From Rossellomorea aquimaris (lineage in GTDB: Bacteria; Bacillota; Bacilli; Bacillales; Bacillaceae_B): DNA of 64,000 nucleotides. A program made the position numbers and the translations under genes. Positions within the stretch are counted from its first letter, which is position 1. Every line of letters begins with the position of its first letter. The stretch is from NCBI RefSeq assembly GCF_008180865.1, contig NZ_VTEX01000001.1:313116-377115 (forward strand), given 5' to 3'. Shown here piece after piece: positions 1 to 51,356 of this stretch. The notes under the pieces are model-generated. The model worked only from the letters and a program-made list of their open reading frames with translations. It ran no database searches and was not told where the DNA came from.

Positions 1-24
1 TCATTACTGTTATTCTATAGAAGA

Positions 25-104
25 ATTATTTTTGTCCGGTATACGAGGGAAGAACAAGATTTGATTTTTCACCTGATATCGCAAGAATAGTAATACATTG
101 TGTG
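25..104 (+). promoter_or_regulatory. Cold-shock gene 5' leader: cold box plus second conserved motif
   Basis: The untranslated leader of the downstream csp gene. Positions 25-37 read ATTATTTTTGTCC, one base from the 13-base cold-shock box that I recall for B. subtilis csp leaders. Positions 81-104 carry GCAAGAATAGTAATACA followed by TTGTGTG. The same two elements, in the same order, precede the second csp gene on the minus strand near 12 kb. A role in cold-dependent mRNA stability or translation is inferred. Confidence 0.6.
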
Positions 105-129
105 TAAAGCACTTTAGGAGGCAACAAAC

Positions 130-330
130 ATGGAAAATGGTAAAGTAAAATGGTTTAACGCAGAAAAAGGTTTCGGATTCATCGAAGTAGAAGGTGGAGA
201 CGACGTATTCGTACACTTCTCAGCGATCCAAGGTGAAGGTTTCAAATCTCTTGACGAAGGTCAAGAAGTATCTTTCGACGTTGAACAAGGTGCTCGTGGA
301 CCACAAGCAGCTAACGTACGTAAAGCATAA
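130..330 (+). CDS. Cold-shock protein (CspA/CspB family)
   Basis: A 66-residue single cold-shock domain, the normal full length. It binds single-stranded RNA and DNA and acts as an RNA chaperone that keeps mRNAs translatable in the cold. Both RNA-binding motifs are intact: RNP1 as KGFGFIEV near residues 13-20 and RNP2 as VFVHFSAI near 26-33. A strong TTTAGGAGG lies just upstream of the ATG. The gene stands alone with its own terminator. It is a paralogue of the Csp at 11752-11952, differing mainly at the N-terminus and in the last third. Which Bacillus csp it corresponds to cannot be settled by eye, although the MENGKVKW start resembles CspD. Confidence 0.96.
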
Positions 331-350
331 TCTAACTTTACAACTCCAAA

Positions 351-379
351 AACAGACTCATTCGTGAGTCTGTTTTTTT
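351..379 (+). terminator. Intrinsic terminator of csp
   Basis: Arms AACAGACTCA and TGAGTCTGTT around a TTCG tetraloop, followed by a run of T. Confidence 0.92.
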
Positions 380-2181: not shown

Positions 2182-3594
2182 ATGAATAAACAACAAATAG
2201 GAGTAGCTGGTGTCGGAGTGATGGGGAAGAGTCTGGCTTTGAATTTCGAAAGCAGAGGCTATTCCGTTTCCATTTATGATGTGTCTGATGAGAAGGTAAG
2301 AGAAGTACTTGAAGAGCATCCAGATAAAAAAATGGTCGGTACTCACGATGTAAAAGAGTTTGTCCAGTCATTAGAAACACCACGAAAAATATTGATAATG
2401 GTTCCAGCCGGTAATATTACCGATAAAGCGATTGAATCATTGCTTCCTCATTTAGATCAGGGAGATATTCTAATTGATGGAGGAAACACATACTTTGAAG
2501 ATACGGTTCGCCGTAATAAGGAACTTGGTGAAAAAGGAATCAACTTCATCGGTGCAGGTGTCTCAGGTGGAGAAGAAGGCGCTTTATACGGTCCTGCTAT
2601 CATGCCGAGCGGTCAGAAGGAAGCATACGATTTAGTCGAGCCTTTCCTGACAGCAATTGCGGCAAAGGTAAAAGGCGATGCATGCAGTACATATATCGGT
2701 CCGGACGGATCTGGCCATTATGTGAAAATGGTCCATAATGGAATTGAGTACAGTGATATGCAGCTTATCTGTGAAGCGTATTATCTTATGAAAAATGTAT
2801 TGGGTTTAAGCGCAACAGAGCTACATGAGATATTTAAAGAATGGAACGCCGGGGAGCTAGACAGCTACCTGATTGAAATCACGGCGGATATTTTCACAAA
2901 GGTGGATGAAGAAACAGGAAAACCCCTTGTTGACGTAATCCTGGATACAGCAGGGCAGAAAGGAACAGGGAAATGGACGAGTATTTCTGCACTGGAGTTA
3001 GGTGTACCATTATCGATCATTACTGAATCTGTATTTGCCCGTTTCATCTCTGCCATGAAGGAAGAAAGAGTGAAGGCAAGTAAAATCTTAAGAGGACCAA
3101 GAAATAAGGAGTTCTCCGGTAACAAAGAAGAGTTTATCGAAATGATTCGCAAGGCGTTATATTTAAGCAAAATTTGCTCATATGCACAGGGTTTCGCCCA
3201 GCTCCAATCTGCTTCCGATGAATATAACTGGAACCTGAAGCCCGGCGAAATTTCCATGATCTTCAGAGGTGGGTGCATCATCCGTGCAGGCTTCCTGGAA
3301 GAAATCAAGAAAGCCTATGATCGTGAACCGGGATTGACGAATTTACTACTGGATCCATATTTCAAGGAAATCGTTGAAAACTATCAGGAGGAAGCGAGAG
3401 AAGTGGTGGCTACAGCCATTAAGTTAGGTATCCCTGTACCAGGTCTTGCGAGTGCTTTAGCGTATTATGACAGCTATCGCTCAGAGTCACTTCCTGCCAA
3501 CCTCCTTCAAGCCCAACGTGATTACTTTGGTGCTCATACGTATCAGCGTGTGGATAAAGAAGGAACATTCCATACAGATTGGTTATCTAAATAA
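2182..3594 (+). CDS. gndA: 6-phosphogluconate dehydrogenase, decarboxylating
   Basis: A 470-residue cytosolic enzyme of the oxidative pentose phosphate pathway that converts 6-phosphogluconate to ribulose 5-phosphate plus CO2 and reduced cofactor. The Rossmann domain starts with [13 protein letters not shown] (about 7-19). The substrate site is present as [21 protein letters not shown] (about 128-148), with the catalytic Lys and Asn in [12 protein letters not shown]. The family signature [12 protein letters not shown] follows near 255. Length matches NADP-dependent long-chain Gnd (YqjI/GndA type). GNTYF and the following residues suggest NADP use, but cofactor preference is not proven here. 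It is divergent from the RpiR regulator and followed by a strong hairpin. Confidence 0.95.
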
Positions 3595-4718: not shown

Positions 4719-5331
4719 AATAGACTCCTTTCAGAAGTAAGGTGTGATTTCAAAAAAATCACTTAATGCGCATTTTAAAGGAAAAGCCCGTAAAAAGAAA
4801 GTATTTAAACCAAAAAGTATAGATTGTAATGAGGTTGAAATACAGTGAATTACCAATATGGTCCCTTTTTCACTATTATGTATACGGTTACATTCGACTA
4901 TCAACTGCCGGACAGAAATGATAATGTAAAAAGACTTTCAACTGGTTTCTAAAAAAAGAGGCTGTTTAAATCGAGATCTTTTCCTCCATTTAAACAGCCT
5001 ATAAAAAATATTGGGGACCAAAGAATACTGTCAAACAACCTTCTATTTGAATTATAGAGAGTGGCTCCATTTTCTTCAACTAACATTTAGGGAGGTGTCG
5101 GCTGACTAGTGTCCTTTTGAAGGCAGTATTCAATATTCTTCTTGTCTTTTCATGAAAAATAATAATTATAAGCATATTTCAAAGGAAGGGTTTTCCTTCC
5201 TTTCGTTCAACATGTTACATCTCTTGACTTTAAGAGGGGAATAGAGTGATACTATTAGAAGATTTCACCTTCTAAACAAAGTGAATAGTTTCACTTGTAA
5301 ATTCGTTTTTAATCGTTTATGATGATACAGA
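4719..5331. other. Non-coding stretch with hairpins
   Basis: No convincing gene. It holds an inverted repeat at 4959-5001 (GGCTGTTTAAAT against ATTTAAACAGCC), a loose long-range pair GAATACTG (about 5024) with CAGTATTC (about 5124), and a hairpin AGGAAGG/CCTTCCT near 5184-5204. These resemble degenerate small repeats rather than a known RNA. The regulatory region of nrdAB follows directly. Confidence 0.5.
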
Positions 5332-5378
5332 ACACAACATTTTGTGTTCTGTTTAATTATTTAAACTATATATTGATT
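5332..5378 (+). promoter_or_regulatory. Candidate tandem NrdR boxes upstream of nrdAB
   Basis: Positions 5332-5347 read ACACAACATTTTGTGT and 5363-5378 read AAACTATATATTGATT. Against the NrdR box consensus (acaCwAtATaTwGtgt, from memory) they match at about 14 and 13 of 16 positions. Their starts are 31 bp apart, the three-turn spacing typical of paired NrdR boxes. They overlap the likely nrd promoter region, so they could mediate ATP/dATP-dependent repression. The first box is also a perfect hairpin (5327-5352), an alternative explanation for its symmetry. Confidence 0.6.
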
Positions 5379-5385
5379 ATAACCT

Positions 5386-5545
5386 GTGAATAGGGTGTCT
5401 GAATGGACTTAAAAGGGAATCCGGTGTGACTCCGGAGCTGTCCCCGCAACTGTAAGTGCTGACGAAATAAGGAACTGCCACTGTCATATACGATGGGAAG
5501 GCCTTAGAGTAGGGCGAAGCACGAGTCAGGAGACCTGCCTTGTTT
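5386..5545 (+). promoter_or_regulatory. Cobalamin (B12) riboswitch upstream of nrdAB
   Basis: The conserved parts of the adenosylcobalamin aptamer are readable. The core has GGGAATCCGGTG, then CTGTCCCCGCAACTGTAA, then GCCACTG (5477-5483) followed by GGGAAGG. The closing B12 box AGTCAGGAGACCTGCC lies at 5524-5539. It sits in the leader of nrdA and is followed by an intrinsic terminator, so B12 most likely switches off transcription of the reductase operon. Confidence 0.93.
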
Positions 5546-5631
5546 ATCACGTGTTATCTTCTTCGGGAATTGGGAGGATAAAGCGAGGATTGGAATAGGC
5601 CCTTTAGTCTATTCATATATCTTTCGTACAT

Positions 5632-5665
5632 AAAGCCCATCCGATTAATAGGATGGGCTTTTTTT
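5632..5665 (+). terminator. Riboswitch-controlled terminator in the nrdA leader
   Basis: AAAGCCCATCC and GGATGGGCTTT with an 8-nt loop and a T-run, placed between the B12 box and the nrdA start. This is the expression platform of the riboswitch. Confidence 0.88.
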
Positions 5666-5704
5666 GAATCCTTCCCACACTGTATAAATTTGGGAGGAAT
5701 GATG

Positions 5705-7951
5705 ATGTCAATCGTATCACAGGATCAAAGGATCACAATGGAAGCAAAAGCGGTTCTTACAAATCTCCACAGTCGCTTTCCACAACTTCATTTTAAAGAA
5801 TTCGATGAAAAGACTTTTAAGTATACAGAGGGTCAATCTGAATTGAGCAAAGAAAAGCTTTATCATTTCATGATCCTCACTGCAGTTGAACGTATCTCTG
5901 CCCATGAACCTGATTGGACGTATGTGGCAGCAGAATTATATTTAATGAAACTCTATCGTACGATCGCTTATTCAAGGGGAGTGGAAGAAAGCCTGTTGTA
6001 CAGTTCCCTTTATGAATTAATACAAGAATTGACGGAAAGGAAACTATATACGCCAGCACTATTGGAATCATATAGCAAAGATGAAATTGACTCTTTGGGG
6101 AGGATCATGGATTCATCTAAAGACCATCTGTTTACGTACATAGGGATCGTCACATTATCAGAGCGGTATTTAACTAAATCCCATGATGGTGAAATCCTTG
6201 AATTACCTCAGGAACGATTTCTGATCATCGCCATGACACTCTTTATGAACGAACCCCGTGATAAGCGACTGTCGCTTATTGAAGAAGCTTATTGGGCCCT
6301 GTCTAATTTGTATATGACGGTAGCAACTCCTACGTTTGCTAACGCCGGCAAAAGCCATGGTCAGTTATCCAGCTGCTTTATTGATACGGTAGCCGATGAT
6401 TTAAGAAGTATTTATGACAGTAATACAGATGTTTCCACACTAAGTAAAAACGGTGGCGGTCTCGGTATTTATCTGGGGAAGGTCCGGAGCAGGGGAAGTA
6501 ATATCAAAGGCTTCAAGGGAGTAAGTTCAGGTGTTATTCCATGGATGAAGCAATTAAATAACACAGCAGTATCCGTTGATCAATTAGGTCAACGTCAAGG
6601 AGCGATAGCTGTTTATTTGGATATATGGCATAAGGATATTTTTCCTTTTCTTGATACACGCTTAAATAATGGTGATGAAAGGCAGCGAACTCATGATCTT
6701 TTCACTGGAGTCAGCTTACCGGATTTATTCATGGAACAAGTGGAAAAGAGAGGGGATTGGTATCTATTTGATCCTCATGAAGTGAGGATGGTCATGGGAT
6801 ATTCCCTGGAAGATTTCTTTGATGAGCGTGAAGGAGAAGGTTCGTTCAGAGATAAGTATTGGGAGTGTGTAGAATGTCCCGGCCTTTCCAGGGAAGAGGT
6901 TCCGGCGATTGAAATTTTCAAGAGGATCATGATTTCCCAGCTCGAAACGGGAACGCCCTACATGTTTTACCGCGATACTGTCAATCGGCTAAATGCCAAT
7001 GGGCATAAGGGAATGATTTACTGTAGTAATTTATGTACGGAAATCTCCCAGAATATGAGTGCGACGGTCATGGAAGAAGAGGTCATAAAGGACGGGAAAA
7101 TCATTACCTATAAATCTCCCGGGGATTATGTCGTCTGTAATCTGGCATCTGTTTCTTTAGCCAAAACGATCATGGATGATGAGCTGGAAAGGGTCGTGTC
7201 CATAGGAGTGAGATTGCTTGATAATGTCATTGATATTAATAAACTTCCAGTCCTGCAAGCCCAACTGACAAACATGCGCTATAGAGGGATTGGATTAGGA
7301 ACCTTTGGATGGCATCATCTCCTTGCATTGAAAGGTTTGAAATGGGAGAGCGATGAAGCAGTTGATTATTGTGATTCACTGTACGAGGATGTTGCTTATT
7401 ACACGATCAAAGCCAGTCATGAATTAGCGGAAGAAAAGGGCTCCTATCCATATTACAGCGGCTCAGACTGGTCGACTGGAGAGTATTTTTCAAAGAAAGG
7501 ATATTCCGGACCGAGATGGGATTCACTCAGGGATGATGTCTCTTCAGGAGGAATCAGAAACGGATATTTAATGGCCGTTGCGCCCAATTCATCCACTTCA
7601 ATCATAGCCGGTTCTACAGCAAGTATTGATCCTTTATTCAGATTAGAGTACTCGGAAGAAAAGAAAGACTATAAGATTCCTGTTACAGCACCTGATTTAT
7701 CACCAAAGACGACCTGGTATTACAAAACGGCTTATAACGTAGATCAACACTGGAGTATTAAACAGAATGAGAAAAGACAGCGACATATAGATCAAGGAAT
7801 ATCTTTTAACTTGTATGTGCGGAATGATATCAAGGCGATAGAGTTGCTGTCTCTTCATTTAGATGCATGGAAGTCAGGATTGAAAACGACTTACTATGTG
7901 AGATCGACATCAGTTTCAAATTTCGATGAATGTGAAAGCTGCCATAGCTGA
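5705..7951 (+). CDS. nrdA: Class I ribonucleoside-diphosphate reductase, alpha subunit (no ATP cone)
   Basis: The 748-residue large subunit of an aerobic class I ribonucleotide reductase, which reduces ribonucleoside diphosphates to deoxy forms with radicals supplied by NrdB. Visible active-site residues are Asn442, the thiyl Cys444 and Glu446 (in YCSNLCTEI), and the redox pair Cys224 and Cys478. The C-terminal shuttle pair is Cys743 and Cys746. Three ATGs follow GGGAGG; the third, at 5705, has the best spacing. The N-terminus goes straight into the RNR_N helical domain and I see no ATP-cone, so overall activity control by dATP is probably missing from this subunit. It is the first gene of nrdAB, behind NrdR boxes and a B12 riboswitch. 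Confidence 0.95.
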   Translation: MSIVSQDQRITMEAKAVLTNLHSRFPQLHFKEFDEKTFKYTEGQSELSKEKLYHFMILTAVERISAHEPDWTYVAAELYLMKLYRTIAYSRGVEESLLYSSLYELIQELTERKLYTPALLESYSKDEIDSLGRIMDSSKDHLFTYIGIVTLSERYLTKSHDGEILELPQERFLIIAMTLFMNEPRDKRLSLIEEAYWALSNLYMTVATPTFANAGKSHGQLSSCFIDTVADDLRSIYDSNTDVSTLSKNGGGLGIYLGKVRSRGSNIKGFKGVSSGVIPWMKQLNNTAVSVDQLGQRQGAIAVYLDIWHKDIFPFLDTRLNNGDERQRTHDLFTGVSLPDLFMEQVEKRGDWYLFDPHEVRMVMGYSLEDFFDEREGEGSFRDKYWECVECPGLSREEVPAIEIFKRIMISQLETGTPYMFYRDTVNRLNANGHKGMIYCSNLCTEISQNMSATVMEEEVIKDGKIITYKSPGDYVVCNLASVSLAKTIMDDELERVVSIGVRLLDNVIDINKLPVLQAQLTNMRYRGIGLGTFGWHHLLALKGLKWESDEAVDYCDSLYEDVAYYTIKASHELAEEKGSYPYYSGSDWSTGEYFSKKGYSGPRWDSLRDDVSSGGIRNGYLMAVAPNSSTSIIAGSTASIDPLFRLEYSEEKKDYKIPVTAPDLSPKTTWYYKTAYNVDQHWSIKQNEKRQRHIDQGISFNLYVRNDIKAIELLSLHLDAWKSGLKTTYYVRSTSVSNFDECESCHS

Positions 7952-7970
7952 CTGGGAGGAAGATGATAAC

Positions 7971-9008
7971 ATGAATGGATTAAAGCAGCGAATCTTAATA
8001 GATTCTGAGGCACCAAATAAATCTACTGGAATTGTAAATGGACAAAGTTCGAATATATTAAACTGGGATGATGTCAGGTTCTCTTGGGCCTATCCAAAGT
8101 ATAAGAGAATGCTGGGGAATTTCTGGACGCCTTTTGAGATCAATATGGCAAAGGATATCAAGCAGTTTCCTACTCTTTCATCAAGTGAGCAGGAGTCCTT
8201 TTTGAAAATTATCGGCTTACTGGCTCTCCTTGATAGTGTGCAGACAGATTACGCCGGTAAAGTGGCTGACTACCTGACGGATTCCAGCCTCAATGCATTG
8301 ATGATCATTTTGGCACAGCAGGAGGTCGTCCATAACCACTCGTACAGTTACGTATTATCCAGTATCGTGTCAAAAAAGAAGCAGGATGAAGTGTTTGATT
8401 TCTGGAAGAACGATCCTATCTTGAAGAAACGGAACGAATTTATAACGAATGGATATAAAGGATTTGTAGAATCCCCCACCATTGAGAATCTTTTAAAGTC
8501 AATCATCTATGATGTCATTCTGGAAGGGTTGTTCTTTTACTCCGGTTTTGCCTTCTTCTACAATCTGGCCAGAAATCAAAAGATGGTGGCGACATCGACG
8601 ATGATTAATTATATCAATCGGGATGAACAGCTGCATGTCGGCTTGTTTGAAAAAATATATAAAGAAGTCCTTAATGAGAATCCGGCTTATCAAACGGATG
8701 AGCTCCGTGACTTTGGACAAGCTGCTTTCAAACAGGCAGCTATCCTTGAAATAGAGTGGGGAAGGGACATCATCGGATCTCAAGTTGAAGGGTTGTTAAT
8801 GAGCGACCTTGAAGATTATATTAAATTCATGGCGAATAAAAGAGCCAAACAGCTGGGGTTTGAAGAACCATTCGAAGGATTTAGGACCAACCCATTAAAA
8901 TGGATCATCGCCTATCAGGAAGTGGATAGAGGAAAGACCGATTTCTTTGAACAGAAATCAAGGCAATATACGAAGACATCGGATGCTAATGGGTTTGATG
9001 AGCTGTAA
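7971..9008 (+). CDS. nrdB: Class I ribonucleoside-diphosphate reductase, beta subunit
   Basis: The 345-residue ferritin-like radical-generating subunit that partners NrdA. The dinuclear metal ligands are all present: Asp88, Glu118, His121, Glu185, Glu219 and His222. The radical tyrosine is kept as Tyr125 in EVVHNHSYSY, spaced as in E. coli NrdB. The ATG at 7971, with GGGAGG about 10 nt upstream, is preferred over an upstream in-frame ATG that overlaps the end of nrdA. The gap to nrdA is 19 nt, so the two are co-transcribed. Iron or manganese as the native metal cannot be read from sequence, and no nrdI is present next to it. Confidence 0.95.
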   Translation: MNGLKQRILIDSEAPNKSTGIVNGQSSNILNWDDVRFSWAYPKYKRMLGNFWTPFEINMAKDIKQFPTLSSSEQESFLKIIGLLALLDSVQTDYAGKVADYLTDSSLNALMIILAQQEVVHNHSYSYVLSSIVSKKKQDEVFDFWKNDPILKKRNEFITNGYKGFVESPTIENLLKSIIYDVILEGLFFYSGFAFFYNLARNQKMVATSTMINYINRDEQLHVGLFEKIYKEVLNENPAYQTDELRDFGQAAFKQAAILEIEWGRDIIGSQVEGLLMSDLEDYIKFMANKRAKQLGFEEPFEGFRTNPLKWIIAYQEVDRGKTDFFEQKSRQYTKTSDANGFDEL

Positions 9009-9159
9009 AAATGAGGGCTGTGGTCCTTTTGGTCAGAGATCAGATCTCTCTAGTCGTAATAAGCAAGTTCGTCGTAATATTTTACGCTGGTGCATTTTTC
9101 TTTAAAAGCGGTTATTATTATCAGAATTTATACAACTGCATTAAAATCAACCCATAAGA

Positions 9160-9186
9160 AAAGCGAGTCATCATGACTCGCTTTTT
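9160..9186. terminator. Bidirectional terminator between nrdB and aldehyde dehydrogenase
   Basis: AAGCGAGTCAT and ATGACTCGCTT flanked by A and T runs. It lies between convergent genes. Confidence 0.85.
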
Positions 9187-11707: not shown

Positions 11708-11740
11708 AAAAAAAAGACCCTACAGAGTAGAGTCTTTCGA
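11708..11740 (-). terminator. Terminator of second csp gene
   Basis: On the minus strand, AAAGACTCTAC and GTAGGGTCTTT followed by a T-run of nine. Confidence 0.88.
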
Positions 11741-11751
11741 ATTAGCATGGA

Positions 11752-11952
11752 TTATGCTTTAGTAACGTTAGCAGCTTGGTCGCCACGGTTTCCTTGAACG
11801 ATTTCGAAAGAAACTTTTTGACCTTCTTCTAAAGTTTTGAATCCTTCGCCTTGAATAGCTGAGAAGTGTACGAACACGTCGTCTCCACCTTCGCGCTCGA
11901 TGAATCCGAAACCTTTTTCTGCGTTAAACCATTTAACTGTACCTTCTAACAT
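11752..11952 (-). CDS. Cold-shock protein (second CspB-like paralogue)
   Basis: A 66-residue cold-shock domain with intact RNP1 (KGFGFIER) and RNP2 (VFVHFSAI). The start MLEGTVKWF at 11952 follows GAGGAGG with 7-nt spacing; the open frame extends upstream but without a site. The MLEG start and FKTLEEGQ segment resemble CspB-type proteins. It differs from the Csp at 130-330 by an Arg in RNP1 and by [12 protein letters not shown] at the end. It carries the same leader elements, suggesting parallel cold regulation of the two genes. Confidence 0.96.
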
Positions 11953-11976
11953 AATGTTACCTCCTCGTGTGTTCTC

Positions 11977-12067
11977 CACACAATTGTATTACTATTCTTG
12001 CTCATGTAACTTCAAGGCGAAAAGCTTTAAAAACTTTGTCTATCCTTCCATTCCGAACAAAAATAAT
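11977..12067 (-). promoter_or_regulatory. 5' leader of second csp gene with cold box
   Basis: On the minus strand, positions 12067-12055 read ATTATTTTTGTTC, an exact match to the B. subtilis cold-shock box as I remember it. Positions 12001-11977 read GCAAGAATAGTAATACA followed by ATTGTGTG, the same motif as in the first csp leader. Confidence 0.65.
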
Positions 12068-12199
12068 TCTCTTACATAATATCAGGTAACCATTTAAAAG
12101 GCAACCCTTATAAATGAAGGAATTAAAAATAGGCAGAAAAATGTGTTAATTTCACTTTTACTATATGAGCCTCACAAAAAAATACATAATGCAAAGGGT

Positions 12200-33654: not shown

Positions 33655-33756
33655 TCTACCTGTCAAAGGGGAGTAGCTATAGGTGACATACCTAAACAAA
33701 GTCGTCAGTTCATGGATTATTCCATCGGCTTTGTTGGCATAATGATTATGCTCAGC
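33655..33756 (+). promoter_or_regulatory. yybP-ykoY manganese riboswitch
   Basis: The conserved aptamer is readable: AAAGGGGAGTAGCTA at 33665, then GTCGTCAGTTCATGG and CCATCGGCTTTGTTGGCA. It lies directly upstream of a ykoY-type TerC gene, its classic context. Mn2+ binding turns such genes on, by preventing the terminator that follows. Confidence 0.95.
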
Positions 33757-48854: not shown

Positions 48855-49011
48855 CTCTTATCTCTCAGAAAGACTATCTTTCTGTTGGAATTAGCACCGT
48901 GCCTTACTGGATCATTCAATCCGGCGCATGCTGCGCCCCGTTATACAACGGTATTATGGTCGGTTGCTGGGCTTCATAGGGCCAAATCCCTCAGCCAGCT
49001 CTTGATAAGAG
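48855..49011 (-). promoter_or_regulatory. SAM riboswitch (S-box) controlling mtnK-mtnA
   Basis: Reading the minus strand: the P1 arm CTCTTATC, AAGAGCTGGCTGAGGGA, then CCCTATGAAGCCCAGCAACC and GGCACGGTGCTAATTCC, closed by GATAAGAG. All S-box landmarks are present. SAM binding favours the terminator, so the operon is expressed when SAM is low. Confidence 0.95.
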
Positions 49012-51251: not shown

Positions 51252-51356
51252 ATTCTTATCAAGAGCAGGCGGAGGGACCAGCCCTATGAAGCCCGGCAAC
51301 CGACTTATTCAAGCACGGTGCTAATTCTTGCAGCTATTAAGCTGACAGATAAGAAA
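51252..51356 (+). promoter_or_regulatory. SAM riboswitch (S-box) controlling mtnWXBD
   Basis: ATTCTTATC (P1), AAGAGCAGGCGGAGGGA, CCCTATGAAGCCCGGCAACC, GCACGGTGCTAATTC and the closing GATAAGAA are all present. A terminator follows at 51371-51402. Confidence 0.95.

Follow-up and report, generated by a model that had tools for sequence, protein, structure and literature searches.

The nrdAB operon of Rossellomorea aquimaris, which encodes a class I ribonucleotide reductase, is very probably gated twice, by a vitamin B12 (cobalamin) riboswitch and by the repressor NrdR, judging from the sequence of its leader. The operon lies in a window of 64,000 nucleotides (nt), the whole stretch of DNA analysed here (assembly GCF_008180865.1, contig NZ_VTEX01000001.1, positions 313,116 to 377,115 of the forward strand), and coordinates without a prefix are positions in it. 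An initial annotation, made from the letters of the window, had described a cobalamin aptamer and terminator ahead of nrdA and, upstream of these, two NrdR-like palindromes 31 bp apart. That description of the leader is confirmed by covariance-model and motif searches, which place the predicted aptamer at 5376-5556, the terminator stem-loop at 5632-5661 and the palindromes at 5332-5347 and 5363-5378.

When adenosylcobalamin is plentiful, the aptamer would fold, its L13 loop would dock on L5 and the P13 hairpin would form; the terminator arm would then be free and transcription would stop before nrdA, so that nrdAB would be off and NrdJ, the B12-dependent class II reductase, would supply deoxynucleotides. 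At low B12, the P13/L13 strand would instead pair with the terminator arm as an antiterminator, and nrdAB would be read. NrdR would act independently of the riboswitch, at the promoter end: with deoxynucleotides plentiful, NrdR carrying dATP together with ATP or ADP, a combination that its binding requires (PMC12176259; papers are cited from excerpts unless a text or main text is named), would bind the pair of boxes and block initiation or early elongation. Given two independent gates, nrdAB would therefore be made only when B12 and dATP are both low. The nrdJ gene itself appears to be controlled by NrdR and by no riboswitch. The operon offers a Bacillaceae leader in which repressor and riboswitch could be separated, with the bases proposed to compete named below.

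The leader of nrdAB

The aptamer, on the + strand, matches the RF00174 model over its full length (1-189 of 189) at 127.6 bits (E 1.1e-31), far above the gathering score of 31.5 bits, in keeping with the aptamer call of the initial annotation. Its surroundings were compared across 110 leaders, comprising 30 loci from the 36 genomes of the genus set (a single-genus family, Rossellomorea) and the best 80 of 253 named loci, with species overlapping; 89 of the 110 upstream regions are distinct. The B12 box, AGTCAGGAGACCTGCC at 5524..5539 (+), fits the general B12-box pattern, which recurs with up to 2 mismatches in 110/110 leaders. It is followed by a hairpin assigned to P13 (5554..5581, +) with the L13 loop UUCGGG, a loop found in 105/110 leaders. 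The proposed kissing partner of L13 is the L5 loop CCCG (5443..5446, +), part of a CCCGC that is present in the 80-nt stretch expected to hold L5 in 110/110 leaders; the two loop sequences are complementary and nearly invariant.

Downstream lies a predicted intrinsic terminator with its U-run (5632..5666, +), a stem of 11 pairs, 6 of them GC, with the arms AAAGCCCATCC-loop-GGATGGGCTTT. The proposed antiterminator strand, CGGGAAUUGGG at 5564-5574 (+), is part of P13/L13 and would target about 5636-5644 in the terminator. When leaders were folded with the terminator 3' arm left out, the 5' arm paired with the P13/L13 stretch 3' of the B12 box in 64 of the 71 distinct leaders that have a strict terminator, as against 65 of 710 shuffles (9%), so that by folding the expression platform is coupled to P13/L13. 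In Rossellomorea, UUGGG pairs with CCCA, and in Geobacillus-type leaders UGAGAAGAU pairs with AUCC.CUCA; the letters differ and yet stay matched, and the partners therefore change together between groups.

Many cobalamin riboswitches work on translation, and this one might do so by hiding the ribosome-binding site, the hairpin being incidental; the 25 of 110 leaders that failed the strict terminator test would fit such control. However, the strict terminator is present in the other 85, its 5' arm finds P13/L13 in the proportion just given, and in the window the Shine-Dalgarno sequence (5692-5697) lies about 30 nt past the terminator stem. Translational control is thus very unlikely, and transcription termination is the preferred mode of the B12 gate.

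The second gate would be the pair of NrdR-like boxes, which were scored against what we take to be the NrdR box consensus. Box 1 (ACACAACATTTTGTGT, 5332..5347) matches it at 14/16 positions and is kept in homologues; box 2 (AAACTATATATTGATT, 5363..5378) matches at 13/16 and abuts the aptamer. On the + strand they outscore every other site in the 64 kb. Their starts are 31 bp apart, leaving a 15 bp spacer within the 15-16 bp sought near an nrd promoter. Of the 89 distinct homologous leaders, 78 have a pair scoring at least 24, as against 0 of 890 shuffles; across the 89, the best pair has its starts 31 bp apart in 54, 32 in 28 and 30 in 7.

A probable promoter precedes the boxes (5295..5323, +), with a -35 hexamer TTGTAA (5295-5300) and a -10 hexamer TATGAT (5318-5323) separated by 17 bp and together matching 9/12 consensus positions. 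With duplicates and leaders of box-pair score below 22 left out, a promoter-like pair of at least 9/12 occurs in the 62 nt preceding box 1 in 65 of 87 distinct leaders, compared with 15.9% of 870 shuffles. From the promoter match at 5295-5323 we infer that transcription would start at the boxes or immediately upstream of them. A -10 hexamer inside box 2 was also considered and was dropped in favour of this better match upstream. A longer palindrome (5327-5352) has box 1 at its core and, as RNA, might also fold into a hairpin at the extreme 5' end of the transcript.

It might be argued that the riboswitch alone matters and that the palindromes are not operators here, since the boxes are predicted and box 2, AAACTATATATTGATT, is a poor match to the consensus at its outer positions. 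The 30-32 bp periodicity of the pairs in 78/89 distinct leaders, absent from the shuffles, argues otherwise. So do 22 leaders in which a cobalamin riboswitch precedes a solo thioesterase gene (see below): these have no NrdR pair, their best scores being only 17-20, whereas six leaders in which the thioesterase is linked to nrdAB score 25-27, which ties the pair to nrd genes. Conversely, 13 of 19 nrdA leaders without a riboswitch keep a pair scoring at least 24. That the palindromes are idle is therefore most improbable, and a role for them as NrdR operators is the reading followed here.

Both genes of the operon belong to class I: nrdA (5705..7951, +), for the large subunit, matches NF006665 at 1277.7 bits and nrdB (7971..9008, +), for the small subunit, matches NF007184 at 409 bits, each above its NCBIfam cut-off. 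The nrdA open reading frame is listed from TTG 5690 and that of nrdB from ATG 7926. NrdA probably starts at ATG 5705, with a Shine-Dalgarno sequence GGGAGG at 5692-5697, and NrdB probably at 7971; the top match of NrdB in the Protein Data Bank (PDB), 2rcc (E 1.8e-148), aligns from residue 16. The Pfam domains of NrdA are lgN and lgC only, and an ATP cone has no Pfam match at E up to 0.001 in NrdA or NrdB. Class Ia enzymes with ATP-cone activity control carry the cone in one of these two subunits; with no cone in either, no class I subclass is claimed. A terminator-like stem, found by sequence scan, lies 3' of nrdB (9158..9186, +).

NrdJ and the distribution of the riboswitch

A B12 switch on a B12-independent reductase led the initial annotation to expect a class II enzyme, and an nrdR gene, elsewhere in the genome, and both genes on which it had staked its reading are present. 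A search of the genome for the class I/II barrel family returned two proteins, this NrdA and an 856-residue NrdJ on another contig, which matches the B12-dependent class II family NF005991 at 1720 bits. There is one NrdR gene (TIGR00244, 236.9 bits), and its product has the Zn ribbon and ATP cone domains (PF22811, PF03477). Two NrdR-like boxes, read by eye, lie upstream of nrdJ, and the nrdJ contig holds none of the five cobalamin riboswitch matches of the genome. Those five lie ahead of nrdAB, metE (L191:2567-4867, named by eye), a btuF-like gene (also named by eye), a cobalamin adenosyltransferase gene followed by a second btuF-like gene, and a hot-dog thioesterase gene.

The arrangement is constant in the genus. 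A cobalamin riboswitch scoring 116-135 bits lies upstream of nrdA on the same strand in 36/36 genomes, the distance to the NrdA match being 124-225 nt for 30 of them and 650-871 nt for 6. The NrdA model cross-matched NrdJ in 36/36 (in G010 only a piece at a contig end), and NrdJ was matched directly in the 12 of the 36 that fall in the order sample described next. Among relatives with a B12 box before nrdA, 50/50 searched, being 50 of the 56 loci initially chosen, have NrdJ over the cut-off, some as split pieces.

A natural control is provided by genomes that have class I and lack class II. Of 299 genomes sampled from the order, 229 have NrdA over the cut-off and 256 have NrdJ over its own. 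Twelve NrdJ-negative genomes were chosen by eye as having NrdA over the cut-off and a best NF005991 E-value of 1e-84 or weaker; 18 NrdJ-positive controls were hand-picked from four of the five families involved (f9, f14, f35 and f41), two of the NrdJ-negative genomes belonging to the fifth (f37), which has no control. A cobalamin riboswitch was found at nrdA in 0/12 genomes with NrdA and no recognised NrdJ, including both nrdA copies of G304, and in 11/18 NrdJ-positive genomes, always on the nrdA strand (Fisher p = 6e-4, relatedness ignored). This bears out the expectation of the initial annotation that the riboswitch implies NrdJ. An NrdR pair scoring at least 24 is kept in the 13 of 19 riboswitch-less leaders already mentioned (9/12 NrdJ-negative, 4/7 NrdJ-positive), and in 11 of those 13 it is no more than 270 nt from where the scanned stretch ends, compared with 407-512 nt in the 11 leaders with a riboswitch. 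From these distances and the pattern of presence, the riboswitch can be regarded as a module that sits between NrdR boxes and gene. Among the genomes examined, this module is seen only where NrdJ exists and is not obligatory there. What had been reports from single genomes thus becomes, for the genomes examined, a rule with a natural control: the B12 switch at nrdA occurs only alongside an encoded B12-dependent reductase.

Use of the class I enzyme without a riboswitch, in 7/18 controls and in 12/12 NrdJ-negative genomes, could suggest that it is always the main reductase and that the B12 switch is minor or a decayed relic. Against this stand the nrdA aptamers, which score 116-135 bits across the genus, and the presence of NrdJ in all riboswitch-bearing genomes checked (36/36 in the genus by cross-hit, 50/50 others). 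Such a reading is accordingly very improbable, and a working switch that hands the reaction over to NrdJ remains the preferred account.

Several points weigh against the double gating. It is predicted from sequence. The riboswitch at the 80 named loci was called by the B12 box pattern and not by covariance model; in addition to the 25/110 leaders that failed the strict terminator test, 7/71 distinct leaders failed the antiterminator test; and the L5-L13 contact has no support from covariation, because L5 is invariant and L13 nearly so. The box-pair score is below 24 in 11/89 distinct leaders, and the promoter is a consensus match that falls below 9/12 in 22/87. As to class II, 7/18 NrdJ-positive controls have no riboswitch, and NrdJ therefore does not require one. 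Among the NrdJ-negative genomes, G202 is 83% complete and G280 has another large-subunit-like frame of 908 residues. The reductase searches, finally, cover classes I and II. The interpretation given by the initial annotation, that nrdAB would be set jointly by B12 and dATP, is supported.

Some genomes of the order, for example G089, G092, G102 and G122, have NrdJ over the cut-off and, apart from the NrdJ cross-hit, nothing that matches class I NrdA; within the classes searched, such NrdJ-only genomes may depend on B12 for this reaction. Upstream of one riboswitch-less nrdA, on the strand opposite to it, is a riboswitch for cyclic di-GMP (c-di-GMP-I; L148:1106-1190, -).

The nrdJ gene is itself interrupted in some relatives. 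Its frame is split in 9/36 genus genomes. Insertions in nrdJ sit at three sites (profile positions about 264, 481 and 652). Group I introns matching RF00028 over its gathering score were found in 4 of 9 interrupted nrdJ loci of relatives searched (L181:1734-2043, L182:2654-2979, L183:927-1308 and L189:1037-1408), and L185 has an RF00028 match below the gathering score (39.8 bits). In L184 and L186, gaps of roughly 240 nt at the profile-481 site matched nothing in Rfam at E up to 0.1. The interruption in L187 contains a frame (2317-3159) that by eye resembles an HNH endonuclease. An intein had been considered for one relative's nrdJ and was dropped, as the insert holds a separate frame of this kind. 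Second NrdJ-like copies occur in two genus genomes (G024:C2:126442-128398 and G027:C9:398493-400091). The window contains five further RNA elements, at 51253-51355 (+), 48855-49011 (-), 33656-33753 (+), 1-379 (+) and 11709-12077 (-), which comprise two S-adenosylmethionine (SAM) riboswitches, a Mn2+ riboswitch and two cspA-type leaders.

A thioesterase linked to the B12 riboswitch

A hot-dog acyl-CoA thioesterase (PF03061) is encoded behind its own cobalamin riboswitch in this genome; riboswitch-linked thioesterase genes are at L004:1841-2314 and L192:703-1176. Orthologs of at least 68% identity are present in 29/36 genus genomes, the remaining 7 having weaker paralogs only (59% or less). Of the 29, 22 lie 142-157 nt downstream of their own cobalamin riboswitch, 6 lie between riboswitch and nrdA, and for 1 (G023) the closest riboswitch upstream is 1929 nt away. 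The thioesterase gene stands first in the nrdAB operon, between riboswitch and nrdA, in 18/110 leaders (L009-L011, L013-L015, L051, L052, L054-L059, L061, L062, L064 and L065), and the 12 named records among them are from Rossellomorea, Mesobacillus, Peribacillus alkalitolerans or Bacillus species.

Proteins of the methylmalonyl-CoA mutase family occur in 36/36 genus genomes, typically as a pair of about 725 and 611 residues, which we take to be MutAB, plus a fused form of 1093-1123 residues, presumably IcmF. A tentative suggestion, to which we give well under even odds, is that the thioesterase is a third backup under the B12 switch, beside nrdAB for NrdJ and metE for a B12-dependent methionine synthase. 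It would hydrolyse propionyl-, methylmalonyl- or isobutyryl-CoA piling up when the B12-dependent mutases are idle, and so spare free CoA. If this were so, a shortage of B12 would simultaneously induce stand-ins for all the major B12 enzymes. A keyword-level literature search found no published link between a thioesterase and a B12 riboswitch, although one paper contains the terms together with Bacillus; the main text of a regulon survey (PMC3766115) has neither 'thioesterase' nor 'nrd'.

Comparison with known systems

A limited literature search, mostly without full texts, found no earlier description of the natural control, of the probable placement of the boxes at or after the transcription start, or of the thioesterase link. 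The components of the nrdAB leader itself have clear precedents.

For NrdR, one is the nrdABI operon of Listeria monocytogenes, which has four boxes, paired, with spacers of 15-16 bp, the commonest NrdR box spacing (PMC12051234). It resembles the present leader as a class I nrd operon under paired boxes so spaced, and differs in that its proximal pair overlaps the polymerase site; the word 'riboswitch' is absent from the text of that paper.

For the riboswitch, Bacillus methanolicus has the same arrangement at nrdAB, and its metE is also riboswitch-controlled, as here: (AdoCbl)-nrdAB and (AdoCbl)-metE are listed from RNA sequencing (PMC4342826). That description, in the excerpt cited, treats no NrdR boxes and names no thioesterase. 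In Priestia megaterium, similarly, cobalamin riboswitches govern the genes of the B12-independent methionine synthase (metE) and reductase (nrdEF) as well as the cob operons, and NrdJ, MetH and MutAB are also encoded (PMC8390425); it differs in that the reductase is annotated nrdEF and that operons for B12 synthesis are under the same control.

A parallel for both controls is in Streptomyces, where, as the initial annotation had noted, repression of class I nrd genes by B12 is established: a cobalamin riboswitch controls nrdABS beside NrdJ (PMC4991794), and NrdR binds the class Ia and class II promoters (PMC4009431). Streptomyces coelicolor thus shares, on the cited excerpts, class I nrdAB with a B12 riboswitch, NrdJ, and NrdR acting on the class Ia and class II operons; it belongs to another phylum, and here, unlike there, no third gene follows nrdB on this strand. 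Both controls are known separately and, in Streptomyces, together, and their pairing recurs in the relatives compared here. Given the arrangements in Bacillus methanolicus, Priestia megaterium and Streptomyces, the nrdAB leader of Rossellomorea is therefore a well supported find of a known type.

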